This document shows positions 3,117 through 16,962 of a DNA stretch of 64,000 nt, in pieces; position 1 is the first letter of the stretch; every line of letters starts with the position of its first letter. The notes under the pieces are model-generated. The model saw only the letters and a program-made list of their open reading frames with translations, was not told the DNA's origin and made no database searches. A program made the translations under genes and the position numbers. This DNA is from Clostridium sp. (GTDB lineage: Bacteria; Bacteroidota; Bacteroidia; Bacteroidales; Bacteroidaceae). The stretch lies in NCBI GenBank assembly GCA_023663705.1, contig JAMPGY010000011.1:1-64000 (forward strand). The letters are read 5' to 3'.

Positions 3117-3166
3117 CATCGCCGCCACACGGCCGGCTTCTGACTAGCGGACGTGTGACGGCGATG
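3117..3166 (-). terminator. Strong hairpin after the fimbrial operon
   Basis: The 15-nt arms at 3117-3131 and 3152-3166 pair with a single mismatch (CATCGCCG-x-CACACG). It lies 22 nt past the last fimbrial gene. No T run follows on the minus strand, so it may act with another factor or protect the mRNA end. Confidence 0.5.
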
Positions 3167-3187: not shown

Positions 3188-4696
3188 TCAGTCTCTGTCC
3201 TTCACCGGACGGACGGAGTGCCCCATGTAGCGGTCGTAGCTGAACACCAGCTTGCTACCCTGCATGAACATCATGCGGACAGCCTTGGTTCCGGTGGAAC
3301 TGTTGGCATCGAGCGTGCCCGACCAGTAGCATCCGCCCGTACCCACCATCTGGCTTTCGTAGCCCACACGGGCTCCCGCCGCCGGCAGGAAGATGCTGTT
3401 GCCGTTGGGGCCGGTCACCTTGCAGCCCCACACGCCCTTGTAGGTCCCCCAGGCCCATGTGCAACGGGCCGACAGCAATTCGTCGAAGTGGGCCAGCGTG
3501 GGTATGCGCCAGGTGCCGCCCCATTGTGCACGGGCGATATCGTATTCCGTGCCGCTTATCTCCAACGGCGGGTTGACCGACGGATAACTGTCGTTGTTGG
3601 TGGTAATGAGCACACCGGTCGGGTCGGCCCATCCGTACAGGCCGCCATACTCCTCGGGCCGTGTGGCACCCACATTGCGGGAAGCCCAGTTCACGCTCAG
3701 TCCCAGGTCGATTTCCTCACCCTCAGTGATGTCGCCCAGCACGGTCATGTCGGTGAGCGACAAACCGTAATTAAAAGTCTTGCCACTCTCGTATTGCGTG
3801 TGCAGATCCTTTGGCTGTGTAGCCGTGCGTACCTGCCCGTCGGGCATGGTGATGCGGAACAGCTGCGCGTCCGGCTCCACGGTCTGGGGCACCACAATGG
3901 CACAGCAGGTTTTCGTGATGGTCTTTCCCTCGCTTACCGTGAAGTCGGCCGCCGTAAGTTCCATATTGGCCACGGCCACCGTCTTCGGTTCGGCCGCACC
4001 GGTCACCTCACCCGTCAGCAAATCCACCTCACACTGCGTGTTCACATCAAGCATTTCCACCTTTATGGTGCCGAAACGGGTGACCGACGCCTTCTCTATC
4101 TCCAGCGTCACCATCACTTTGGTGAGCAGATGGCGGAATCCCATCTGCACCATACCCCGCGTACGGAAGGGGTTGGTGACGTCTCCCGCCGGCTCCGCCC
4201 ACAGGAGGTCGCTGGCGATGACGGCCTCATCCTCGCGCTGGTCGGTCTGTACGGCAAAGGTCCTGCGGTTCCAGTCCTCAGCGGAGTCTTCCGCCCCACT
4301 CCACTCTTCCTGATAAGGGGCATAGGTATAGGCGCTCACCAGCTCGGTCTCTTCCTCGGGATAGTACAACACCGTATTCAGGTTCAACCGTCCACTGCCG
4401 TCCGCCACAGCCTTCACATTGTGATAACAGTCTTCCGGCTGTGCGGCACGCACATAGATACCTGTCTCCAATCCATTGGCAAGGGCATCGCCCTGCAACG
4501 TGGTGTTCACGCCTCGTGTGAGCGTGGGCGTAGCATAGGAGAAACGGATGGGCTGCCGACCGTCTGTCATTTCCGCCTGCGTGTTCTCCGTCATTTCATC
4601 CTCGCTGCACGAGGCTGTGAGCAGGCATCCGGCCAACATCATCACGCATAGGCTCCAAAAGCCGCATCTTCCTTTATGTAGTTTTCCAGCTGTCAT
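3188..4696 (-). CDS. Fimbrillin-like lipoprotein with C-terminal FISUMP-type domain
   Basis: This 502-residue protein has a lipoprotein signal peptide with lipobox LLTASC (Cys near 30) followed by acidic residues. The N-terminal 330 residues resemble the Mfa/FimA-type fimbrillin fold, with a Thr-Arg-Gly site (LTRGV near 60) and HLLTKV near 180. From about residue 325 a separate domain (EIDLGLSVNWASRNVGA, GGTWRIPT, then YWSGTLDA and GHSVRPVKD at the end) matches the Fibrobacter succinogenes major paralogous (FISUMP) module. It is the last gene of the operon, 8 nt after the barrel protein, which suggests a tip or accessory fimbrial subunit. The organisation is known for Bacteroides minor fimbrillins; the tip role is inference. 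Confidence 0.75.
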   Translation of the reverse strand: MTAGKLHKGRCGFWSLCVMMLAGCLLTASCSEDEMTENTQAEMTDGRQPIRFSYATPTLTRGVNTTLQGDALANGLETGIYVRAAQPEDCYHNVKAVADGSGRLNLNTVLYYPEEETELVSAYTYAPYQEEWSGAEDSAEDWNRRTFAVQTDQREDEAVIASDLLWAEPAGDVTNPFRTRGMVQMGFRHLLTKVMVTLEIEKASVTRFGTIKVEMLDVNTQCEVDLLTGEVTGAAEPKTVAVANMELTAADFTVSEGKTITKTCCAIVVPQTVEPDAQLFRITMPDGQVRTATQPKDLHTQYESGKTFNYGLSLTDMTVLGDITEGEEIDLGLSVNWASRNVGATRPEEYGGLYGWADPTGVLITTNNDSYPSVNPPLEISGTEYDIARAQWGGTWRIPTLAHFDELLSARCTWAWGTYKGVWGCKVTGPNGNSIFLPAAGARVGYESQMVGTGGCYWSGTLDANSSTGTKAVRMMFMQGSKLVFSYDRYMGHSVRPVKDRD

Positions 4697-4704
4697 ATCT
4701 GTAT

Positions 4705-6747
4705 TTAGAAGTGGAACGAGGTTCCGATATTAAATTTTACCAACAATGATTTCTTGTCCACCATCACGCCACGTCCGATGAATCCGTCCTTGAGGAAGTA
4801 TTGCATCTCGGGTTCGGCATACACACTCCAGCGCGGGGTAATCCGGTAGTCCACCGTCATGCCACCGTTGAGTGCCCAAGCCCCGCTACCCTTCATGTCC
4901 TTGACAATCGGAGTGGCATTGTCGCCCACCACGAGTTCCTTTTCGTAAAGGTGTCCCTTTTGGGTGAGATAAAGTGCATAGGCCGGGCCGAAGTTGAAGT
5001 ACACATTCAGTTTGCGGTCGGGATTATAGCCCTGATAGAGGTTGGACAGATTGACCATCAGCTGCACCTTGGTGTTGAGCAGTCCGTAGGTGAAGTGCCA
5101 CTGCGACTCGTAGCGGCGGGTGAATCCGTTCCAGTCCACCTCGTAATCGGTATCGGTGTTGCGGTTGAAAGTCATGTATTCCACGCCCACCTTCACGCCT
5201 GCGAAAGCAAAGGGTTGATAACCGACTTGCAATCCTGCGGCCATGTTCATCGTCTGGTCGCCCACACGCTTCAGGTTGGCCACCTGCTTCAGTCCGCCCA
5301 CCTGTGCGCTGACGAAGATGTCGCGTCTGAACTCACTGTAGCTGTGATGCTTGCGTTCCGCTTCCTGCGGACGGATAAAGCGCGCGCCAGCATTGAGATA
5401 AAGCAGACGGTCTGTGAATTTCTTTTCTGCCGGGATGTTGGAGTAAGGCATCACATACTTTGCCCACAGCACACGCGGTTCGATAAAAAGTGCCGTGCTG
5501 TGGCTCACATTGTAGAGTCCTTGCACAGCCATCGTGAATCCGATATAATTACATTTCAATCCGTTTCGCGAATCTTTCACGTACTTGACCATACGTCCCA
5601 ACTCACCGCCCATTGACAGGTTGACATCGAACATACGGTATTGCGTGCGTGCTTTCTTAGAGAAATGAAGGGGATTGAGCATCACCTCCGCACGTCCGGA
5701 AAAGAGGGCGGCACGATAGTGATCCTCGTAAGCAGGTCGGCTGGCCGTCGCCGAAGTCATGTAGCGGCTGTAGAGGTAATCGGAAGCCTGTCCGCTGATG
5801 CGTGCGCCCACAAGGGGGTCGAACCATTTACCCACAGTCAAGGTGTAGCCTGTCCCCATGGTTTGCCCGATGTTGTCCAACCGGCGTGTGCCGAAGAAGG
5901 TAAGTCCCTGCGAAGCTTCTATGAAGAGGTTGCCGTTGTGCGTAGTTCCGGCCAGATATTCTTTCTCGCGTCCGAAGCGCACACTCACACCGGCCTTCAC
6001 GCCGTATTGTATATCGTGGTTGGCAGGGTTTCCCTTTCCACCCGAATGGTCAATCTGGTCGGTGGCTATGGCAAAGAACGGTTCGGCAAACAGTTCGGCA
6101 TTGCGCCCGATGTGGAACGCGCCGTGCAGTCCCACCTGCCCTTTATACACGCGTTCCTTATGTCCCCTCAGATGGGAGGAGATGACACCGATACCGAGTG
6201 TACCGGTCAGGCTGAACAGGCGGTCGGGATTGTATCCGTTGAGGTAAGACGTGAAGTTGAACATATAGTCCAGGTCTACCCCCGCCTGCTGTATGTCGCG
6301 CAGATTCTGGTCCAAGGTGTAACGCTGATAGGTGGCGGTGAGCCGGACACCGTGCAACCGATTGAAATAGTTTCCGATGAACAGGCTCAGAGGTATACCG
6401 GCTTCCATATCTCGTCCTCCACGCGGCGTTACCTTGGACACACCGGCACTGGCGCCCAAGAAGATATGATCGTAGAAATAGTTGCGGAACTTTTGGCCTT
6501 TCTCGATGTATCGGGGCTGAAGAATATATTGTTCTGGACGAATCATATCCATATTCTTTTGCCGTTGAGACATAGGCACTACCGTATCTGCGACCACACT
6601 CTTAACAGAATCTACAACAAGTGAATCAATGGAAGAATGCAGAGTATCCTTCACGTGAGCAAATGTATCCAGCGCCATGCTTTCCATTGAAGAAAACGAC
6701 AATAGGCACACCGAAAGACGGATTAATATTTTTATATTTGCTTTCAT
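4705..6747 (-). CDS. Outer-membrane protein with three tandem barrel-like repeats
   Basis: This 680-residue protein starts with a signal peptide and a Ser/Asp/Val-rich linker to about 70. It then contains three homologous units at about 93-258, 272-458 and 474-680. The units share four landmarks in order: an opening strand (IFLGASAGV / LFIEASQGL / IFVSAQVGG), a middle segment (NGYNPDRLFSLTG / KKARTQYRMFDVNL / QGYNPDRKLNVYFN), a penultimate strand (LFAEPFFAIA / LFIEPRVLWA / VYAEPEMQYF) and a closing strand (YGVKAGVSVRF / LYLNAGARF / VKFNIGTSFHF). Alternating aromatic/polar strands and the terminal Phe are typical of outer-membrane barrels. Unit size matches the 8-strand DUF3575 proteins of this operon. 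It probably anchors or exports fimbrial subunits. The exact family is not recognised. Confidence 0.7.
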   Translation of the reverse strand: MKANIKILIRLSVCLLSFSSMESMALDTFAHVKDTLHSSIDSLVVDSVKSVVADTVVPMSQRQKNMDMIRPEQYILQPRYIEKGQKFRNYFYDHIFLGASAGVSKVTPRGGRDMEAGIPLSLFIGNYFNRLHGVRLTATYQRYTLDQNLRDIQQAGVDLDYMFNFTSYLNGYNPDRLFSLTGTLGIGVISSHLRGHKERVYKGQVGLHGAFHIGRNAELFAEPFFAIATDQIDHSGGKGNPANHDIQYGVKAGVSVRFGREKEYLAGTTHNGNLFIEASQGLTFFGTRRLDNIGQTMGTGYTLTVGKWFDPLVGARISGQASDYLYSRYMTSATASRPAYEDHYRAALFSGRAEVMLNPLHFSKKARTQYRMFDVNLSMGGELGRMVKYVKDSRNGLKCNYIGFTMAVQGLYNVSHSTALFIEPRVLWAKYVMPYSNIPAEKKFTDRLLYLNAGARFIRPQEAERKHHSYSEFRRDIFVSAQVGGLKQVANLKRVGDQTMNMAAGLQVGYQPFAFAGVKVGVEYMTFNRNTDTDYEVDWNGFTRRYESQWHFTYGLLNTKVQLMVNLSNLYQGYNPDRKLNVYFNFGPAYALYLTQKGHLYEKELVVGDNATPIVKDMKGSGAWALNGGMTVDYRITPRWSVYAEPEMQYFLKDGFIGRGVMVDKKSLLVKFNIGTSFHF

Positions 6748-6760
6748 TTTCTTAATTCAA

Positions 6761-9034
6761 TTAAAACATGGGGTCATCCAATTCTCCATTCTTATACATT
6801 TTCCACACCTTATCGAAAAACTTACGATAGTTCTCATTGAAATCACCATCATTTCGCGCTATTTTATAATAACGCTCCTCCTGTTTGCAACATTCTAACA
6901 AATAGGTATTATCTTCACACAATGCGTATTCATCAAAAACCTCCAATGAACGTCCTGTCACAATTGCTTTTAAATACAATATTTTAGGGTCATTCTGATT
7001 GGGGAAATATGTGGTATCATTCAATACCTCCATTGCCATTTCATCAAACATTTTGTTATCCATTGCCGAATAAATTACAGCTCTGTTCATGGGAGATGTT
7101 GACGCCACATATTCTCGAATTTCCTCATTATCCTCATATCCTCCGTTCAGACAATCCAAAAACTTGCGCAACTTATCACTTTCCTCCGTCTTTGGCAACA
7201 ATCCAGTCAACCCATATCCTTCCAAATAATCACCCATCTTCACCATCATAACAATCTGAGTGGAAACAATTGCCTCATCATTTATTATCTCTTCAACAAC
7301 CATACTACCATCCGGCATAACAAGTTGCTTCTTAAAATTTGGAATACGGTCAAAACGAATAAACGGAGCCAATAAGGTTGTATCACAGGTATCACGTTTC
7401 AAATAACATTGAGCCAAATGATAGGCAGCCAATGGCCATGGATTCTTCATATTTTTAGAGACCTTATAAGCACGACGAGCCAATATTTCCAACTCTTTTG
7501 GATCTTTAACCTGATCAAATAAGTATCCGAATTCATACAAAGCAAATTCCTTTTTCCCGCTACGGAAATCTTCATCTGTCTGCCAACGCTTCAAAACCTC
7601 CTCTGGAGAAAGAGCACGATTAATCTCATGCTGGTACTGATAGTATACAGTACGAAGACGAGGTAATATTCTTTTTATATCTTTTTCATAAAAAGGCAAC
7701 TTTGCAATACGTTGATATTGAGCATCTCTATTTGAGGTACTACGTACAATCGCCCTAACCTGCTCTGCATAATCCTTTAAGGAGTCTGCAAATAAAGAAT
7801 CTGCGACTTGATTCCAATCCGCAACCCTACTGTCTTTCGTCATATTACGCCGATCCATACCTGGAAGAGATGCAATTTCATTGAAAGCAAACATCATACG
7901 ATCATGTCCCAAACGCTCATTCGTTGAATAACGACCTTCGGGTGAAGATTGTCCCAGGATATCAAACTGTTGAACAGTTCCGTCTTCACTATTTAAAATC
8001 GCAGAAAGTTCAGACTTCAAGTTATTCAATTGAATAAAATTGGTAGAATCGTTTGGATCTAATTCTGCCTTACCAACCAAGAAGGTCAAAGACAAGCTAC
8101 CCGGCTGATTGTGACGTTCCGGCTGAGGTCTTTTTCGATAATCCTCCGGATTAATTTCCTTTGCATCCACTTTAAATTCCAAAAAACGCAACGGTTGTCT
8201 GGCCTCACAAGGAACACAGTTAAAAGAATCACGATAGTAGACCATATTATAGTCTTCATACCAATATTTAATATCACATCGGTAATTCTTTCCCATTTCG
8301 AGCTTGGTCAAAGAATCCTCAACGTGAATTGTTGCACTTTGTCTCGTCTCCATATCCCCCTTTACCCGATATTCAATCAACGGATCATGCGACTCTTCAT
8401 ACCCCATTCTGCGCTTTTGCGTTGTTTTGTATTGCACACCATCCAATACCCAAGGATGTTTAATTGCAAACGTATCTTCCTCCTGACAATCAAATGCAAC
8501 AGGTGACAATACGACACGAGCATTTGTTTGAGCATACTGCGGTAAAACAGGAAAATCATTCTCAAACTTCAATTTATTACCAAATCGTTTACCGGGCTTC
8601 GGACGAGGCTGCATCTTTGCCTTTGCATTTACATCGACCTGCTTTATAAATTTACCAAAACCACTCAATGGGATTGTTAACTCCGTCTGTCCGTTAATAC
8701 GTCCATAATACGGTTCCTTCAAACTCATACCAACAACCATGATACCACCATTTAGCGGGGCAGTCAATGAGCACATACCATCCTGTGAAATACCCATATT
8801 TTTCGCAGACTTCGGGTTTTCACCTGTTTTTTGGTATTCACGAGCTGCCTCATAAGCCTGACTTGGTGTATTAAAAACATAAACACTTACAGACTCCAGC
8901 AAAGGCACATTCCCCTCGTCCTTATTGACAAGCTTGACAGTTATGAGTTTATCTGAGGTTCCAAAAATCTGTCCTTGACAAACAGTAATGCCAGTGACAA
9001 GTAGCAAGAGCGTCCAAACAATCTTCTTCATCAT
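6761..9034 (-). CDS. Large periplasmic fimbrial-locus protein with OmpA-like segment
   Basis: This 757-residue protein has an N-terminal signal peptide (about 1-22, cleavage near CQGQ). It has a beta-rich N-terminal half, an OmpA-C-like segment near 320-395 (SLTFLVGKAELDPNDS, then LGQSSPEGRYSTNERLGHDR), and a long helical C-terminal half of probable TPR-like repeats with LARRAYKVSKN and YHLAQCYLKRD. The OmpA-like segment would bind peptidoglycan in the periplasm and could hold the outer-membrane assembly in place. It lies 13 nt before the triple-barrel gene and 19 nt after the DUF3575 gene. Its DNA is visibly more AT-rich than every neighbour in the operon. An AGAGGA Shine-Dalgarno-like sequence precedes the ATG. 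Confidence 0.65.
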   Translation of the reverse strand: MMKKIVWTLLLLVTGITVCQGQIFGTSDKLITVKLVNKDEGNVPLLESVSVYVFNTPSQAYEAAREYQKTGENPKSAKNMGISQDGMCSLTAPLNGGIMVVGMSLKEPYYGRINGQTELTIPLSGFGKFIKQVDVNAKAKMQPRPKPGKRFGNKLKFENDFPVLPQYAQTNARVVLSPVAFDCQEEDTFAIKHPWVLDGVQYKTTQKRRMGYEESHDPLIEYRVKGDMETRQSATIHVEDSLTKLEMGKNYRCDIKYWYEDYNMVYYRDSFNCVPCEARQPLRFLEFKVDAKEINPEDYRKRPQPERHNQPGSLSLTFLVGKAELDPNDSTNFIQLNNLKSELSAILNSEDGTVQQFDILGQSSPEGRYSTNERLGHDRMMFAFNEIASLPGMDRRNMTKDSRVADWNQVADSLFADSLKDYAEQVRAIVRSTSNRDAQYQRIAKLPFYEKDIKRILPRLRTVYYQYQHEINRALSPEEVLKRWQTDEDFRSGKKEFALYEFGYLFDQVKDPKELEILARRAYKVSKNMKNPWPLAAYHLAQCYLKRDTCDTTLLAPFIRFDRIPNFKKQLVMPDGSMVVEEIINDEAIVSTQIVMMVKMGDYLEGYGLTGLLPKTEESDKLRKFLDCLNGGYEDNEEIREYVASTSPMNRAVIYSAMDNKMFDEMAMEVLNDTTYFPNQNDPKILYLKAIVTGRSLEVFDEYALCEDNTYLLECCKQEERYYKIARNDGDFNENYRKFFDKVWKMYKNGELDDPMF

Positions 9035-9053: not shown

Positions 9054-9599
9054 TTATTTTATAATATATGAGAATGAGACTCCCAGTTTGAATGGAATAA
9101 CGGCGTAACCACAGGAGTTGTTGCGCACGCCCAGATATTCATCGCGGTCGCCCGTGTAGTAGTGGCGCTGGTCGTAGTAGATGGCACCCACACTGCCGTA
9201 GCACTCCAGGTTCCAGTGGCTGGACAGATTGAACGAGTAACCGAAAGTAAGGCCGGCACCGATGGCGTTGCCATCATACACCTGCTTGCCCCATGTGAGA
9301 TCGTAGTTGACCCCAATCACAGCCAGACCGACAAACTCACGCGTCATCGGACGACCGTTGAACCAGAAACGGTATTCCGGCATCAGACCTATCATCTTGA
9401 TGTCCTTTCCATACACCTTGTAGGAACCGAACACAGAGGCATTGATACTGCTCCGCTCTCCAACCACCAATTCTCCGTTCAGGTTGGGAACCATCAACAC
9501 ATCCATCAAAGCGTCTGTCTTCACGGCAAGCAATTGCGCACGCAGCGCCGATGAGCCGAGACATAACATCGTTGTCAGCAGGAATAAAAACCGTTTCAT
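9054..9599 (-). CDS. DUF3575 family outer-membrane protein
   Basis: This 181-residue protein has a signal peptide ending near ALRAQ and then about 155 residues of short amphipathic strands. The start LLAVKTDALMDVLMVPNLNG is the typical DUF3575 opening (VKTNLL...PN...E). It ends with Ile-Ile-Lys after a final strand (LGVSFSYI). The family is a small 8-strand outer-membrane barrel that recurs in Bacteroidales fimbrial loci, with no proven activity. Its strand pattern (FGYSFNLSSHWNLECYGSVGA) resembles single units of the triple-barrel protein encoded two genes downstream. The neighbouring gap of 112 nt to the fimbrillin upstream is the longest inside the operon. Confidence 0.8.
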   Translation of the reverse strand: MKRFLFLLTTMLCLGSSALRAQLLAVKTDALMDVLMVPNLNGELVVGERSSINASVFGSYKVYGKDIKMIGLMPEYRFWFNGRPMTREFVGLAVIGVNYDLTWGKQVYDGNAIGAGLTFGYSFNLSSHWNLECYGSVGAIYYDQRHYYTGDRDEYLGVRNNSCGYAVIPFKLGVSFSYIIK

Positions 9600-9711: not shown

Positions 9712-10812
9712 TTAAAGTTCGATGTCTATGCCATCACCTTCTTCCCAGTCTTGCAACTCGGCTTCCAGAGTGATTTCCTTAGGTCCATGAACGGTAAGCT
9801 TCACGTTGTAAGACTTACCCTTCTCAAATACAGCACCGTCCTTGCCGTTCATCTCCAGCCAGCACTCCATCTGCATCACCTCGCCGGGGAAGCTTTCGTG
9901 AGTGAAGTCTACGGCCAGCAGATACTTGGCCTCAGGATAAAGCAACAAGCTCTCGCCCACGTTCACCTCGCCATTGGCCAAAGATGCAGGGGTCAACTCG
10001 GTACCGTCTTCGTTCTTCAAATATACATCCTCGCGAATATCGCTGTTCGGATTGATCACACCTTCCTCTTCAGTCAATATGCCGTTAGCGTCACGTTTAG
10101 CCACCGTCAGGGCAAGGTTGGTATACACCTGCTTGATGTAGATCTTCTGCACCGTCATGCCGGCTGCAGCCGCACCTTCATCAGCACCTTCCTCATCAGG
10201 AATGGCCGTGAATGTGAAGCGGGACAGCAAGTGCTGCAAATCCAACTTGGGCTTTGCAACTTCCGGATGCAAACGGAAATACTTGGCGCTGTAGGCATAC
10301 TGCTCTTCGCTGGTAGCCTTACCCCAGATGATGTCCTGAGAACCATCGATCACATAGTTGGCCACAACGGTGTTGAGCATGGTAGTGTCCACCTGTGCAT
10401 CATAGGGATAGTAACCATAGAAGTCATAACTGTAGAACTGGCTGATGGGATAGAAATAGTGCTTGCCTTCTTCCAGCCAAGTGATACTTGCTCCCTGCTT
10501 GGTTGCAGCCACATTGTTCATAATACAGGCCGACCAGTGCAAGGGGTCATTGTCAAACCAGTTAATATCCGAGGCACCGCTGTTGATTTCCTGCTTGGCC
10601 TTGGCCAGACAGAAGATACCCATCTCGTCCAGATCACCGTCGCCCTGGATAGCTGCACGGGTCATGCCGCCGTTACCCAAAACGATCTCCACGGGATTGC
10701 CTTCCACATCCACGTTGCCACCGATTGTGCCAGCCGCCAAATCATCGTCGTTGGAGCAGGCAGACAGCATCGCTACCGATGCTGCCAATGCCATATAAGT
10801 GTACTTCTTCAT
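9712..10812 (-). CDS. Fimbrillin-like lipoprotein (third in the operon)
   Basis: This 366-residue lipoprotein has a signal peptide with lipobox MLSACS (Cys near 19) followed by NDDD. A Thr-Arg site (GGMTRAAIQ, near 50) lies where P. gingivalis FimA-type proproteins are cut by an Arg-specific protease during donor-strand assembly. The HLLSRFTFTA segment near 190 and the C-terminal FEKGKSYNVKLTVHGP strand are hallmarks of the fimbrillin fold. It ends DWEEGDGIDIEL. It is separated by 24 nt from the preceding fimbrillin, which it resembles in length and order of motifs. Role as a stalk subunit is inferred from family and position. Confidence 0.8.
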   Translation of the reverse strand: MKKYTYMALAASVAMLSACSNDDDLAAGTIGGNVDVEGNPVEIVLGNGGMTRAAIQGDGDLDEMGIFCLAKAKQEINSGASDINWFDNDPLHWSACIMNNVAATKQGASITWLEEGKHYFYPISQFYSYDFYGYYPYDAQVDTTMLNTVVANYVIDGSQDIIWGKATSEEQYAYSAKYFRLHPEVAKPKLDLQHLLSRFTFTAIPDEEGADEGAAAAGMTVQKIYIKQVYTNLALTVAKRDANGILTEEEGVINPNSDIREDVYLKNEDGTELTPASLANGEVNVGESLLLYPEAKYLLAVDFTHESFPGEVMQMECWLEMNGKDGAVFEKGKSYNVKLTVHGPKEITLEAELQDWEEGDGIDIEL

Positions 10813-10836: not shown

Positions 10837-12117
10837 TTAGTTGTTTTCAACCACACCTTCATCCTCGGGAGTGAGCGTAACGTCGCCACCGTCTGCCCAA
10901 CCGGTCAACGTAGCGATAGCCTCGATCTTCTGCAGACCGAACATCTTGATGGTTACGTTGTAAGAAGAACCTTCCATGAAAGCAACGCCTTCCTTACCGG
11001 TGTTCAGCTCAACATTGAAAGAAATAGTCTTGTTGTTCACCTCGTTTTCGTCAGGCTGCTGAGCTACAGTCACACGGAGTGTATACTTCATCTCGGGCTT
11101 TACCAACAGAGCCTCACCAACGGCAACAGCACCTTCCTTATCGGTCTCAAAGAGGGATACAGCATCCAACTTCTCCAAATTCTTGTTAGCCTCTTTACGC
11201 TGCTTCAGCACCATCTCTGCCTTGCTGTTCTCATCCCATGTGATGATTTCCTCAGGAGCAACAGTATAGGCCACAGCCATTTCACCCTTGTTGTATACAC
11301 CACCGTCCGTATTCTCATTGTAACCAATGATTTCAACAGACTGAATCTTTACGGCACGTGCCTCATTATATTCCTCGTTAAAGAAACCAGCAGCCTTTGC
11401 ATCACCTGCAATGGCAGAGAACTTCAGACGAGTCAACAAGTGCTTGAACTGCAAACGGGGCTGAACATCATAACGGGCAGCCTTTGAGCTGTAGCAGAGG
11501 TTGGCAGCAGCTGCAGCATCCTCAGCCACACCGGCAGCAGTGAGCTTCGACAAATCGAATGTGTTGGGTTCAGCCTTAGCCACCATCAAATCCTGAGAAC
11601 CATCAATAGTGAAATCAACTGAGAAAGTTTCCTCGTCTGCACTCTTCTTGATTGTTGCGTCACCTGCATTATCCAAGTGATAAGCAAAGAAATCGTAGTA
11701 GTTGTTCAAGGGATAGTACTTGGGCACACCGCCGTTGTAGTGTACGTACTCGCTTTCTTCATCGGCAGAAGGAGCTGTAACCTCTTCGTTCTCGAACAAA
11801 TACGGATTGTCCGTACCCATAGCCTTGTTCGGATCCAAAACTGCATAAGACAAAGGAGTTCCTTCCTGAGTGCGGTTGAGCATCAACAGACGAAGGCTCT
11901 CGCCCTGCCAGGTGTTTTCCTCAGAACCTTCCAAATCACCTACAGAACCCGTGCCACGAGTTACGGATACACTCGGAGTACCCAAACTGAACATGATGGG
12001 CTGACGGCCATCGTTCTCTACCTGATTGGCTGCACCCGGAGTTACGTCCGTGTCGTTGGAGCAGCTTGTCATTGCGCCCATAGCAACAAGGGCTGCAAAC
12101 AAATAACTTTTTTTCAT
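10837..12117 (-). CDS. Fimbrillin-like lipoprotein (second in the operon)
   Basis: This 426-residue lipoprotein has lipobox AMTSCS (Cys near 19). A Val-Thr-Arg-Gly site near 54 follows a NDGRQPIMFSLGTP segment that is almost shared with the FISUMP-type subunit (TDGRQPIRFSYATP). The fimbrillin landmarks FTIDGSQDLMVAKA (near 170), FKHLLTRLKFSAI (near 225) and the C-terminal FMEGSSYNVTIKMFGL are present. These are matched in the neighbouring fimbrillins (for example YVIDGSQDIIWGKA). It is rich in Glu and Ala and lacks Cys after the lipobox, as is common for pilus subunits. It is probably a structural subunit whose processed form inserts a donor strand into the next one. Confidence 0.8.
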   Translation of the reverse strand: MKKSYLFAALVAMGAMTSCSNDTDVTPGAANQVENDGRQPIMFSLGTPSVSVTRGTGSVGDLEGSEENTWQGESLRLLMLNRTQEGTPLSYAVLDPNKAMGTDNPYLFENEEVTAPSADEESEYVHYNGGVPKYYPLNNYYDFFAYHLDNAGDATIKKSADEETFSVDFTIDGSQDLMVAKAEPNTFDLSKLTAAGVAEDAAAAANLCYSSKAARYDVQPRLQFKHLLTRLKFSAIAGDAKAAGFFNEEYNEARAVKIQSVEIIGYNENTDGGVYNKGEMAVAYTVAPEEIITWDENSKAEMVLKQRKEANKNLEKLDAVSLFETDKEGAVAVGEALLVKPEMKYTLRVTVAQQPDENEVNNKTISFNVELNTGKEGVAFMEGSSYNVTIKMFGLQKIEAIATLTGWADGGDVTLTPEDEGVVENN

Positions 12118-12174: not shown

Positions 12175-13560
12175 TTATTCACCCAGATTCTCGTAATTAT
12201 CATCCGTTTTCGGATTGTCGGGATCAACGTTCAAGTCTCCATCTCCGCCGTTTCCATCAATCCACTGAGGCGCTCCCATGCTCATCTCAATATCCTGCAA
12301 TCCATACACCATAATACCGATGGTGTAAACATGACCAGCCTCAAACTTCTGGGAGTAATCGGCTGCCAGACGCACACGGTAGTAAGGCGTTGTGGTGTAG
12401 ACTCCCACCGTTCCGTCTTCGTTGTATCTGTTCTCGCGGCAAGTGAGACGAACATCGTAGGAAACATCCGGAAGCACAAGGAAAGATGTGCCTAAGCGGG
12501 TTGACTTCTGATGGTATTTGTCCAGTGTCTGATCGAATGCCATCACTTCGTTCAAGATGTTGTTCGCATACACACTGTAGTGTCCGTTCTCGTCCTTGTC
12601 CTCCTTGCCCGGGAGCGACCAGGTAATATCCTTGGGCTGGTTGTCGGCCACCGTCAGTCCTATCTTTGTAGTATCCGCATCGGCCACCGTCAGGATAGCG
12701 CGTGTCTTAGGATTCACCAGTTCCACTTTCTCCAGCACCATACCGTCGGCTTTCTTGTCACCCGGTGTTACCTCGAATACCAGTTGCACCAGTTCGTGTT
12801 TCATCTTGAACTGCGGATGCACACCGCGGTGACCGGCATAGGTGGAATAGATAAGCTCGCTCCAACGGGAGAGCAGTGGTTTGTATTCCTGTCCTTCCAG
12901 GCTCTCCATCTTCTTGCGGCTCGGACGGGCCACCGCCGTCATGATGTCGTTCGTTCCGTCTATGGTAATGTTGGCGCTAAGCGAGGTGGTCGTACGGTTT
13001 GCATTGTTCCAATTAATGCGATTGCCGTTCCAGTCCTCAGTGTCATCATCGTAATAACACAGCGAGAAGTTGTATTTGTAGTCCTGATGTTCGGTACTAT
13101 AATAAGGTGTCTTTCCGGCCCACTTCATGTTGACATAGGTGATATCGTCCTCTTCCCAGGTCTTGCCCCAATCGCCCTCCAGAATCACCTCATTGCCATA
13201 AAGCAACCAATTGACACCCGGGTTCTCCTTGTTCTCATCATAATCCTTGATGAGCAGATTGGTCATATCGGGATTGGCCTCATTGGGCGTGCGCCATGCA
13301 AAAGTGCGGAAACGCGCCTGCTTCCAGTGGTCGCGGTCTTCCTGCACAGAACCAAACGCTCCCGTACTACGGGTGAGGATGGAATAGGCGGGATCATTGA
13401 ACGAATACAGAATGGGTATGCGGTCGCTTACCACTTCGTTGCTTCCGACATCCTTTCCACCACTGCCCTGCGGGGCATTCAGTCCCGGAAAACTCTCGCT
13501 ACACGATGATGCCAGACAACAGAGTCCCACCATCCAAGCTGTAGATTTTATCCTGTTCAT
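12175..13560 (-). CDS. Fimbrillin-like lipoprotein (first in the operon)
   Basis: This 461-residue lipoprotein has lipobox LASSCS (Cys near 20). A Leu-Thr-Arg-Ser site (near 65) is the putative Arg protease site. The fimbrillin landmarks ITIDGTNDIMTAVA (near 195), FKMKHELVQLVFEV (near 250) and FEAGHVYTIGIMVYGL (near 425) are present. It ends in an acidic tail (about the last 25 residues). It is somewhat longer and more diverged from the other two subunits than they are from each other, which could mean an anchor or adaptor rather than the main stalk. It begins 17 nt after the DUF5119 gene. Confidence 0.75.
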   Translation of the reverse strand: MNRIKSTAWMVGLCCLASSCSESFPGLNAPQGSGGKDVGSNEVVSDRIPILYSFNDPAYSILTRSTGAFGSVQEDRDHWKQARFRTFAWRTPNEANPDMTNLLIKDYDENKENPGVNWLLYGNEVILEGDWGKTWEEDDITYVNMKWAGKTPYYSTEHQDYKYNFSLCYYDDDTEDWNGNRINWNNANRTTTSLSANITIDGTNDIMTAVARPSRKKMESLEGQEYKPLLSRWSELIYSTYAGHRGVHPQFKMKHELVQLVFEVTPGDKKADGMVLEKVELVNPKTRAILTVADADTTKIGLTVADNQPKDITWSLPGKEDKDENGHYSVYANNILNEVMAFDQTLDKYHQKSTRLGTSFLVLPDVSYDVRLTCRENRYNEDGTVGVYTTTPYYRVRLAADYSQKFEAGHVYTIGIMVYGLQDIEMSMGAPQWIDGNGGDGDLNVDPDNPKTDDNYENLGE

Positions 13561-13577
13561 TTTATATATGTATCTTT

Positions 13578-14903
13578 TTATGCATCAATAATTATGGTTT
13601 CGGCCGGGATCCAGCGATCCATACCGGTGTCGTTGTCCGAATCCTCTATAATCACACCTTTCTGAATCGTCAACACCCGATTGATCTTCAACGTAGCCGA
13701 CCGCTTGTTAATCACATAGTGTTCGTCATCGTCGGCCCATTTGATCAGCGCTGCCTCACGAAGCGTGTTGCGCAAGTTGATCAGACACTGTATCGCCTTG
13801 TATCTAAGTTGTCCGTCATCGTCCGTTGTCGATGTGTAGACCACCAATTGCATGATGCCGGGACCGGTCACTAAATTGCGGTCGAAACTGTGCATGATAC
13901 TCGTCACATCCAATTCCCCTGTACAATTCACCGTAGTGGCATTGATGTTTTCGGCCGCAAAAACCGGTTCAAACAGAATCTTGTTGGTATGCTCCACATC
14001 CAGATAACCGGTGGTGAACTGGATTCCGGAGGGTATTCCGCTCATATCGGCCAACATGCGTTCTATCTTCACGCCACGCTCCTTGTTGATGGAGAACTGC
14101 ACCGTAATCTTCTGCGTCACCGGCTGCGGCTTGAATGTGATGGTACACTTTTGGTTGAGCGTCACCGGCACGTTCTCGCATGTGGCGTAAAAAATGGGAT
14201 AGTTGCAGTTCTTCACAAAGCGGGCATACGGATTATAGTCCTTCCAACTTCTCCAGCCTTCAAACAGCACCTCATCCAGATCATGCGTCTTATATCTAAG
14301 GTGCAGATTGTCCATATCATAGGAAGGATCCGTACGGAATTCGTCCAACCCATCCATCTCGAAGCCCTCGGCATCACTGTTGAAAGCCAGGAAACGGTAT
14401 TCTCCGTTCTTCAATCTCATCTTATGCCACACTTCAACCGGCTGGTCTTCATCGGCCAATGCAGCAAAAGCAGCCTCTCCGTCCGTATCCGAACCTTTCT
14501 CGTCTTCCGCTCCATCCGGCAACGGATCTCCACCTTCGTTCTCGTCTTCGCCTTCGTCCCCGTCCGGTGTTTCTCCCGGAGTCACGTCCGGTTCCGGAGT
14601 AGTGGGTGAGGCCGGATAGAGCAACACCTGTTCTTCCAGCGGAAACAGCATCGATCCGCGATTACCGGATGCCTTGGCTTCAGTGGAAAATATATATTTA
14701 TAACTGTTCACAATACGGTGAGCCAACACGTACATGCGATCCGGATGTTTACCGGCATCCTTCCACTGCCCCCAGTCGAAATGTACATCCAATGTGGCAC
14801 GATGCGGATGATCCGAATGACAGAGTTCAACCTCCGTATTGCAGGCCTGAACCAGCATAATCGACACCAGCAGTAACATCCATTTCATTATCAATCGTCT
14901 CAT
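13578..14903 (-). CDS. DUF5119-type lipoprotein of a fimbrial locus
   Basis: This 441-residue protein has a short signal peptide with lipobox LVQAC (Cys near 21). The lipobox is followed by the DUF5119 signature: acidic/His segment (ELCHSDHPHRATLDVHFDW) then a Trp-containing stretch. A Pro/Glu/Asp-rich, low-complexity insert occupies about residues 100-150. The remainder is beta-rich (for example GEYRFLAFNSDAEGF). DUF5119 proteins sit next to fimbrillins in many Bacteroides loci, similar in place to FimB/Mfa2 anchors. The start at 14903 overlaps the upstream stop by 4 nt (ATGA) and has a GGAGG Shine-Dalgarno sequence. A length-control or anchor role is inference. Confidence 0.7.
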   Translation of the reverse strand: MRRLIMKWMLLLVSIMLVQACNTEVELCHSDHPHRATLDVHFDWGQWKDAGKHPDRMYVLAHRIVNSYKYIFSTEAKASGNRGSMLFPLEEQVLLYPASPTTPEPDVTPGETPDGDEGEDENEGGDPLPDGAEDEKGSDTDGEAAFAALADEDQPVEVWHKMRLKNGEYRFLAFNSDAEGFEMDGLDEFRTDPSYDMDNLHLRYKTHDLDEVLFEGWRSWKDYNPYARFVKNCNYPIFYATCENVPVTLNQKCTITFKPQPVTQKITVQFSINKERGVKIERMLADMSGIPSGIQFTTGYLDVEHTNKILFEPVFAAENINATTVNCTGELDVTSIMHSFDRNLVTGPGIMQLVVYTSTTDDDGQLRYKAIQCLINLRNTLREAALIKWADDDEHYVINKRSATLKINRVLTIQKGVIIEDSDNDTGMDRWIPAETIIIDA

Positions 14904-16432
14904 GCCTTCAGCCCTCCTTTCTCACCGAAACGCATTATTCCCGATGTTGCATATATCTTCAGTTGCATATCCTGATTATCCAAATCACTGTCACCCTCAC
15001 CGGATTCGTCCGATGTTTCCTCCTCCGGCTTTTCCACAGGTTCTTCCGGCATCACTTCGGGTGCCTCCTCTGCAGGCTCATCCGGTGTCTCCTCCGAAGT
15101 ACTCTCATCCGGTTGCGCATCCGGTTCCTCAGGCATCACCTCGGGCACGGGCACATCCCCCACCTCTGTACTGTCCGTTTGTTCTTCCGGCGCATCAGGG
15201 AATACAACTTCCTCAATACGGGCAACAGTATCTATCGGTTCTTCCATTACCGCAGGAATATTTCCTTCCGGAACAGCTATAGAATCACCGGGATATACGT
15301 CTAATGAATCCTTACGATTCTTAGACGCTTTTTTCAACAACTTGGCAGCAGCCTTCTCAGCACGTTCCAGTGAATCGCGCATCCGTTTGTCCTGACGAAC
15401 CGAGTCTGCCACAAACCTCTTACGAAGATCGGCCAATGAATCGGCCATCTTCTTCTCCATTTTAAGAGAATCAGCCTGATATTTCTTATATTCGTGTTGC
15501 AACGAGTCGGCCAAGCGCTTCTTATTCTTCTCCTGCGACAACGAATCGGCCACAAACTTCCTGCGTGCATTCTTCTCCGTACGCTTGAGTTTCACCGAAT
15601 CAGCTTCATCCTGATGTTTCTTCGCCTTTTCTACCCAAGCATTATCCCAATCGTCCGCACGTCTCTTATTCCATTTATACTTATTCTTGGACGATGCCAT
15701 ACGATACACCAATGACACGTGGACATCCTGTATAACAGGGAATGGCACAAAATGCTTCTGCTTAGTTTCGGTATAAGCATAGCAAGCGCTTTCCTCCTCG
15801 TATGAAAACTTGTCAAAACGCGTATAGCGAAAACCGGCACGGGCTCCCACTTCAAACTCAATACTGCCGTGTCTCAACTGATAGAGCGGCTGGGTAAAAC
15901 CTCCGGAAACACCTACCCCGGCACCTTTTCCCTGGATACCATTACCCATTAGAATGGTATGCTTGTCATACTCGCCATACAAACCTATATAATAAGCCCT
16001 GTAAGAGCGAGGTCTCTTTTTCACTGCCGCACGCGTACGGAAATGATGCCAAGCATTTTTCAGAAAGAAGACATTGCTATCCGGCTTCCAAACAACCCCT
16101 TCCGAACGGGTGTGCCAATAATAACGCCCCTCCACATTAAGCTCAAACACATTGTACACAATACGCGGATTCTGCGTATGCCGAGTATTCCAATTATATT
16201 TCATTCCTGCAAGCACCGCCAGACGGTTGTAGGGCGAACCCGTCACATCCAACTCCACCGTTGCATTGGGCGTCCCCGTCAACCAATCAATCATATTGGT
16301 GTGAAAGGAAAGCCGTTTACCGAAAGCCAACGTGTCCAGCTTTTCACCGGTAGTCCGCGCTCTTTGCTGTGCCGAACCCGGCACAACCCACAAGCACAGC
16401 AACAATAAGATTCCTTTTATTATCGTTTTCAT
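14900..16432 (-). CDS. DUF3575 protein with coiled-coil and acidic C-terminal extension
   Basis: This 510-residue protein is the first gene of the fimbrial operon. A signal peptide (to about 22) precedes a DUF3575-type barrel (about 28-255, opening LSFHTNMIDWLTGTPNATVEL). Unlike ordinary DUF3575 proteins it then carries about 130 residues of repeated charged units built on ADSL (for example FVADSLSQEKNKKRLADSL), probably a coiled coil, followed by about 100 residues very rich in Pro and Glu. A topology of barrel in the outer membrane with a periplasmic or surface stalk is inferred. The ATG at 16432 (MKTIIKGIL) is chosen over an in-frame ATG at 16462, which would spoil the signal peptide. Confidence 0.7.
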   Translation of the reverse strand: MKTIIKGILLLLCLWVVPGSAQQRARTTGEKLDTLAFGKRLSFHTNMIDWLTGTPNATVELDVTGSPYNRLAVLAGMKYNWNTRHTQNPRIVYNVFELNVEGRYYWHTRSEGVVWKPDSNVFFLKNAWHHFRTRAAVKKRPRSYRAYYIGLYGEYDKHTILMGNGIQGKGAGVGVSGGFTQPLYQLRHGSIEFEVGARAGFRYTRFDKFSYEEESACYAYTETKQKHFVPFPVIQDVHVSLVYRMASSKNKYKWNKRRADDWDNAWVEKAKKHQDEADSVKLKRTEKNARRKFVADSLSQEKNKKRLADSLQHEYKKYQADSLKMEKKMADSLADLRKRFVADSVRQDKRMRDSLERAEKAAAKLLKKASKNRKDSLDVYPGDSIAVPEGNIPAVMEEPIDTVARIEEVVFPDAPEEQTDSTEVGDVPVPEVMPEEPDAQPDESTSEETPDEPAEEAPEVMPEEPVEKPEEETSDESGEGDSDLDNQDMQLKIYATSGIMRFGEKGGLKA

Positions 16433-16462
16433 ACATCTAACATTCGTAATCATCCAACCCAC

Positions 16463-16962
16463 ATTGGATAGTCAACACCGCTTCTTTCTTCATCGCCCCT
16501 CTAATCAACAACAAGAAACAGAAGTTTTTCTCCACACGAGCCCAACCCGCACAAGTCAGTCCATATCATCGATACATTCCCAAAAGCGCCGTACTTGCAT
16601 TTTTCGATACACGTTGTCGTCACTTCTCTCTAATAAGGATATCAGACTAATGCCTAAATAATCATTTGCACTGCAAAGATAGGATATTTAAGTTCAATAG
16701 ACAAAAATTTAGACTCTAATTTTTCGTTTTTAAATACAAAAATTACCCCCCCCCTATAAGCTAATCAAAACTCAATCAATAACTTACAACAAATAAAAAG
16801 AATTACAGCGAGAATACAACCATTCAAAAGACAATAAAAAGAAAACTAAAAAAGGAGAACATAACCATCTATACCTTTATAAATTACCTCTTCACGTCGG
16901 CACGAGTTATTTTAAAAATATACCAAGCTCCCTGTTCAAGAATGCGAGTTAAAAAAAGATCC
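16463..16962. other. 500-nt intergenic region between pgeF and the fimbrial operon
   Basis: This region is strongly AT-rich. It holds the fimbrial promoter (16674-16705, minus strand), a run of nine C at 16746-16754 about 40 nt upstream of that promoter, and a roughly 240-nt untranslated leader. I see no gene here. The part next to pgeF (16860-16960) shows no clear terminator. Confidence 0.6.
16674..16705 (-). promoter_or_regulatory. Promoter of the fimbrial operon
   Basis: On the minus strand TTTTG (16706-16702) and TATCTTTG (16681-16674) are separated by 20 nt, an excellent match to the Bacteroides -33/-7 consensus. The leader to the ATG at 16432 would be about 230 nt. A C9 (G9 on the transcribed sense strand) tract at 16754-16746 lies upstream of the -33 element. 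Confidence 0.75.

Follow-up and report, generated by a model that had tools for sequence, protein, structure and literature searches.

To our knowledge, almost every outer-membrane protein described has a single barrel in its chain. Chains with several barrels have reportedly been treated by Solan et al. 2021 (PNAS), and among them combinations of eight-stranded barrels are said to prevail. Eight-stranded OmpA-type barrels are closed and have no through-pore. Multi-barrel outer-membrane proteins form a recognised class, of which GfcD/YjbH is a studied case, as stated in excerpts of PMC11494523 and PMC8592465. In these excerpts the two barrels of GfcD, with 12 and 13 strands, differ from each other and flank a middle domain. 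The 680-residue protein described here, P0001, shares with this class the presence of several outer-membrane barrels in one chain. Set against GfcD by description, its family differs in that the units are predicted to have eight strands each, follow one another in A(BC)n order up to a total of 13 barrels and are encoded beside a conserved partner gene; it is an ordered, length-variable variant of the known multi-barrel class.

Other systems offer further points of comparison. The fold predicted for the first two units of P0001 is that of the OmpA/OprF/NspA barrel; unlike those proteins, the P0001 family has at least three barrels per chain and an OmpA-like domain in a separate protein, while a single-barrel relative (L042, 368 aa) carries an OmpA domain, as OmpA-type proteins do. 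Type V (FimA/Mfa) fimbrial operons of Bacteroidales encode fimbrillin-like proteins, as does the P0001 operon. Type V pili are built from tip, stalk and anchor pilins, which start as surface lipoproteins and are then cleaved and assembled at the surface; the sections of PMC12632263 that give this account mention no multi-barrel protein, unlike the P0001 operon. Fimbrial-operon barrels of the DUF3575 family (PF12099) share the operon with P0001 and are similar in size to its units, and the excerpted text of PMC10434189 names DUF3868 and DUF3575 genes in Bacteroides thetaiotaomicron BT4233-36. Among the matches listed in a partial library covering multi-barrel proteins, DUF3575, fimbrillins and Paraprevotella, nothing concerned the A(BC)n family, which does not prove its absence from print.

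The operon lies in a 64,000-nucleotide stretch of contig JAMPGY010000011.1, referred to as the window, and comprises nine genes on one strand:

16674..16705 (-), match to the promoter consensus that we take to be of Bacteroides type, TTTG-N20-TATCTTTG (5 matches in the window against 0.91 expected)
14900..16462 (-), P0004, DUF3575 protein with a long charged tail, first gene of the operon (E 3.9e-12)
13578..14903 (-), DUF5119 protein (E 5.5e-12)
12175..13560 (-), fimbrillin-like protein, weak Mfa_like_1 match (E 0.0053, below cut-off)
10837..12117 (-), fimbrillin-like protein, weak Mfa_like_1 match (E 2.8e-4, below cut-off)
9712..10812 (-), fimbrillin-like protein, Mfa_like_1 (E 2.1e-17)
9054..9599 (-), P0003, DUF3575 barrel, third gene of the cassette discussed below (E 1.4e-36)
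6761..9034 (-), P0002, partner protein of 757 aa with NTE-like, OmpA-like and TPR-like regions
8642..8956 (-), NTE/CarboxypepD_reg-like domain of P0002, residues 27-131
7622..8128 (-), OmpA-like domain of P0002, residues 303-471, with an SPEG motif, Asp absent at the usual site and Arg kept
6785..7612 (-), TPR-like helical region of P0002, residues 475-750, weak matches only
4705..6747 (-), P0001, outer-membrane protein with three barrels, A-B-C, by homology and prediction
4711..5322 (-), barrel C of P0001, residues 476-679, eight strands and a short extra strand (609-613), by prediction and unit profiles
3188..4696 (-), fimbrillin-like protein with a C-terminal extension, last gene of the operon (E 8.7e-25)
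3117..3166, inverted repeat with 19-nt arms (89%) and a 12-nt loop, terminator candidate just past the last gene

Two of the operon's genes exceed the Mfa_like_1 cut-off and two fall below it; Mfa_like_1 fimbrillin genes are a feature of type V fimbrial operons. The last of them, at 3188..4696, perhaps encodes a tip subunit. At the other end of the operon, P0004 combines a DUF3575 barrel with charged, DSL-rich repeats spanning about 250 residues and with an acidic tail rich in Pro; translation probably begins at an internal Met, residue 11. The extra C-terminal region of the 3188..4696 protein gives a weak Lcl_C match (residues 392-498, E 0.082).

Barrel units of P0001

The earlier note had described three homologous units in P0001, at residues 93-258, 272-458 and 474-680, and a self-comparison together with a structure prediction of the full chain bears this out. 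The AlphaFold2 model, computed from an alignment of 10 sequences (pLDDT 72.6, pTM 0.59), places the units at residues 95-257, 274-458 and 476-679, close to the bounds first claimed. The repetition of strand landmarks likewise stands, with the correction that the four landmarks claimed per unit are in the model eight strands, the third unit having a further short strand (609-613). Pairwise similarity of unit 1 to units 2 and 3 lies about three standard deviations above shuffled sequences (4 and 5 of 500 shuffles scored as high); for units 2 and 3 the similarity lacks significance, since 100 of 500 shuffles did as well. Profile-profile self-comparison, built on a 14-sequence alignment, gave E-values of 1.8e-11 (units 1-2), 9e-16 (1-3) and 1.5e-8 (2-3). 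The corresponding scores of 59.5-101.9 compare with 17-23 for reversed profiles, and none of the 60 column shuffles made for each pair exceeded 31.6. Rotated profile copies, which retain part of the match, scored 47-95.

The chain therefore holds more than one complete barrel domain, all three units as judged by homology and prediction and the first two, A and B, also by a fold match to solved barrels of the OmpA/NspA/OprF type. Each unit is predicted to close as a separate barrel, the modelled arrangement of the barrels being tentative at a pTM of 0.59, and the claim of three separate barrels in one chain is thus supported. That P0001 is instead a single 24-stranded barrel whose repeats are mere appearance is highly improbable: TonB-dependent receptors do rank first in the Foldseek list (E 2.6e-9), but those among its 50 rows reach a TM-score of at most 0.16 at an rmsd of at least 22.5 Å, units A and B of the model each align with a complete single barrel, and family members with 2 to 13 units exist.

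P0001 has no match to the Pfam profile OMP_b-brl (PF13505); a 13-barrel relative matches this profile in seven stretches (E 1.1e-21). Neither does it match the DUF3575 profile (PF12099), up to an E-value of 1. A resemblance of the units to the operon's own DUF3575 barrels had also been proposed; it is mainly one of size, and at the profile level it is weak and equivocal. When family profiles of units A, B and C were compared with two DUF3575 sets, five of the six scores (14.6-23.9) fell inside the range of reversed controls (15.3-30.8 over all pairs), and the sixth, of C units with the longer DUF3575 set, was a weak, ambiguous match (score 32.6, probability 26.6%, E 6.9e-4). One natural fusion of a unit barrel (residues 34-232) with a DUF3575 barrel (234-408) was observed at L164, 8601-9854 (-), right after the partner gene.

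Order and number of barrels in the A(BC)n family

A family search gave matches in at least 86 of 201 genomes of the same taxonomic family. Loci were taken as 40 stretches from this search and 28 from a scan of named genomes, with some contigs shared between the two sets, and barrels were counted with a unit model in 65 non-identical open reading frames, from which two subfamilies emerged. In the subfamily of P0001 the similarity between units alternates like a checkerboard. Across both subfamilies, labelling units by parity beats every other labelling in 25 of the 30 chains with at least five units, the five others being L037, L038, L046, L086 and L043. Profiles for A, B and C were built from those 25 parity-fitting chains, leaving P0001 outside the training set. 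With these profiles the order A-B-C was assigned to all 25 three-unit chains, P0001 included and none of them used in training, although two (L058 and L087) are incomplete. The units of P0001 score 172/58/66, 20/146/37 and 36/32/125 against the A/B/C profiles, so that the chain ends in C, and its last residue is Phe, which is also the case for 44 of the 54 complete chains when the two subfamilies are pooled. L043 is classed as A-B-C-B-C-B-C by the same profiles even though parity labelling is not its best.

Our phylogenetic analysis of 245 units (FastTree, omitting partial chains and some near-identical ones) recovers A (47 units), B (85) and C (85) each as an exact clade, with support of 0.94, 1.0 and 0.82. 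The idea of a fused trimer accordingly survives in that there are three barrels in one chain, but not in the sense of copies of one type, since A, B and C are distinct types in clades of their own. The remaining 28 units, from the second subfamily, fall outside these clades and form no clade of their own. For some B and C units the nearest neighbour in the tree lies in the same chain, in 6 of 10 chains examined (L091, L069, L066, L057, L042 and L065), and pairs have therefore been duplicated several times, independently. At L065, 8404-11730 (+), the DNA of C units 3 and 5 agrees at 95% of 678 bases and their B units differ more; the identity of the C units points to recent duplication, conversion or recombination there.

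Complete chains of the P0001 subfamily number 49 (59 open reading frames minus 10 that are incomplete or single-barrel). Three barrels occur in 23 of them, five in 15 and seven in 7, and counts of 9, 11, 13 and 2 are each represented by one chain; the counts rest largely on draft genomes, where near-identical repeats can collapse. An odd number (3, 5, 7, 9, 11 or 13) is thus found in 48 of the 49, which are not independent events because some form near-identical pairs (L080/L081 and L082/L098). The lone complete exception is L031, A-B, of 436 aa. Left out of the count are L058, L089 and L092, which run off their contig or stretch, and L087, which has masked bases. L036, L094 and L095, likewise left out, were rejected as candidates for even chains: their pieces, searched apart, read A-B-C-B-C, A-B-C-B-C-B-C and A-B-C-B-C, respectively.

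Taken together, these sequence comparisons show that the A(BC)n family lengthens through duplicated B-C pairs, the repeat unit being a barrel pair, and that P0001 is its shortest regular member. A is nearer to C than to B (hhalign scores 176 and 119), and we therefore read the series as two alternating barrel classes with the A/C class at both ends, an arrangement that would force odd barrel numbers. The second subfamily (L037, L038, L046, L086, L039 and L040) departs from this pattern. Its first four members were placed there partly on account of their parity failure, and the placement finds support in their units, which belong to none of the A, B and C clades and which the three models score similarly. 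It has no consistent alternation and 4, 5, 6 or 8 barrels, so that the odd rule fails there; an eight-barrel member, L162, shows some parity.

Partner gene, cassette and proposed role

P0002 lies directly upstream of P0001, with 13 bp between 6761 and 6747, and a partner gene followed by a multi-barrel gene was found in 53 of 57 places. Some partner match at E ≤1e-10 occurs in 183 of the 201 genomes, a number that includes shorter OmpA-type relatives. Such relatives, matched mainly in the OmpA region, are common in the family. P0002 scores as an OmpA-like fold in the fold test. At the Asp and Arg positions that we take to form the peptidoglycan-binding site of OmpA-like domains, the Asp is absent, with Ser or a gap aligned there; Ser364 and Arg379 are invariant in 20 of 20 sequences. 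A tie to the cell wall is therefore doubtful. Partner length does not increase with barrel number (Spearman -0.27, p 0.054, 51 chains), which does not favour a docking site for each barrel.

Together with a DUF3575 gene, the NTE/OmpA-like/TPR-like partner and the multi-barrel chain make up a cassette that is also present in five other families of Bacteroidales, where 10 of 11 genomes have chains of 5, 6 or 8 barrels. At L051 (G174:C6:8000-27500), a single contig bears two tandem cassettes of partner and multi-barrel gene, separated by DUF3575, DUF5119 and fimbrillin-like genes. Fimbrillin-like neighbours, searched with the window's own four proteins as queries, occur in 18 of the 40 loci of the first set (L047 and L051 overlap), and in 8 of the 28 named-genome loci, at least five of these on contigs shared with the first set. 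In 12 of 12 genomes, picked because no fimbrillin gene had shown up close to their cassettes, no Mfa_like_1 match lies near the cassette, as judged with a model of incomplete sensitivity that leaves two of the window's four fimbrillin-like proteins under its cut-off; where the contig does hold one, the distance is about 59 kb or more (G489 having the closest), and two of the 12 (G044 and G228) have no Mfa_like_1 match genome-wide. The four-gene cassette of Prevotella pallens (L090), with two DUF3575 genes, partner and multi-barrel gene, likewise has no recognisable fimbrillin gene nearby. Recognisable fimbrillin genes are thus no fixed part of the system.

P0001 most likely serves as an outer-membrane scaffold. 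In the reading that we favour, three eight-stranded, non-porous OmpA-type barrels of kinds A, B and C would be arrayed next to one another in the outer membrane; the conserved turns would face the periplasm and dock on the P0002-type partner encoded just upstream. Pair identity is higher in periplasmic turns than in extracellular loops (0.39 vs 0.25, p 3e-5), and a GYNPDR motif stands in the turn following strand 4 of units A and C of P0001. The DUF3575 barrel would be the third core part of this multi-point membrane scaffold, whose load in the window operon would most likely be the fimbrillin-like surface proteins, carried or anchored; in other species the same core would act without them. 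To this reading as a whole, an A(BC)n member that docks on its partner and carries or anchors fimbrillin-like proteins here, we give an even chance. Its last element matches the suggestion that P0001 holds a fimbria, which is possible at this locus, with fimbrillin-like genes in the operon, and does not extend to the cassettes that have no Mfa_like_1 match nearby.

Distinctly more tentative is a generalisation of this scaffold, in which A(BC)n would be a genetically encoded, length-variable belt of barrels. Each B would obligatorily bridge two barrels of the A/C class, and pair duplication would therefore keep the count odd; the number of pairs would set the size of a surface platform resting on DUF3575 and partner proteins, a general Bacteroidales assembly with fimbriae as one of several cargoes.

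Somewhat less probable again is a surface array, in which the barrels mount many variable extracellular hairpins with adhesive or receptor function, and B-C pairs multiply binding sites or alter antigens. The greater variability of extracellular loops, the lineage-specific amplification of pairs in the unit tree and the two near-identical C units of L065, as a recent duplication or conversion, would all suit such an array. A plain adhesin, however, needs no periplasmic-type partner gene, whereas the pairing of the two genes is nearly constant, and the loops of unit A in P0001 are short (2-16 residues).

We regard as unlikely an envelope tether with no fimbrial link, that is, an OmpA split and multiplied, one gene supplying the barrels and its neighbour the OmpA-like domain. 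The division into OmpA-type barrels and a separate OmpA-like domain fits it, as does the core of DUF3575, partner and multi-barrel gene that lacks recognisable fimbrillins in P. pallens and other families; against it stand the missing peptidoglycan-site Asp of the partner and the fimbrillin-like genes in the window operon and in nearly half of the first-set loci.

The earlier note's own proposal, an export platform for fimbrial subunits, is very improbable. It draws on the fimbrillin-like operon, which a single promoter candidate precedes and a single terminator candidate follows, but the barrels, being eight-stranded, have no pore, and export through them is therefore unlikely; type V pilins are, in the excerpts of PMC12632263, surface lipoproteins cleaved and assembled at the surface, and cassettes without fimbrillins exist.

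Whatever the cargo of the proposed scaffold, the conserved cassette of DUF3575, NTE/OmpA-like/TPR-like partner and multi-barrel chain is a target for deletion studies. With chains that range between 3 and 13 barrels and nearly always differ by multiples of two, the family offers a natural series for the folding by BAM of many barrels in one chain. Only the last barrel ends the chain, and the A(BC)n series bears on how BAM handles the others and on why barrels are added pairwise.
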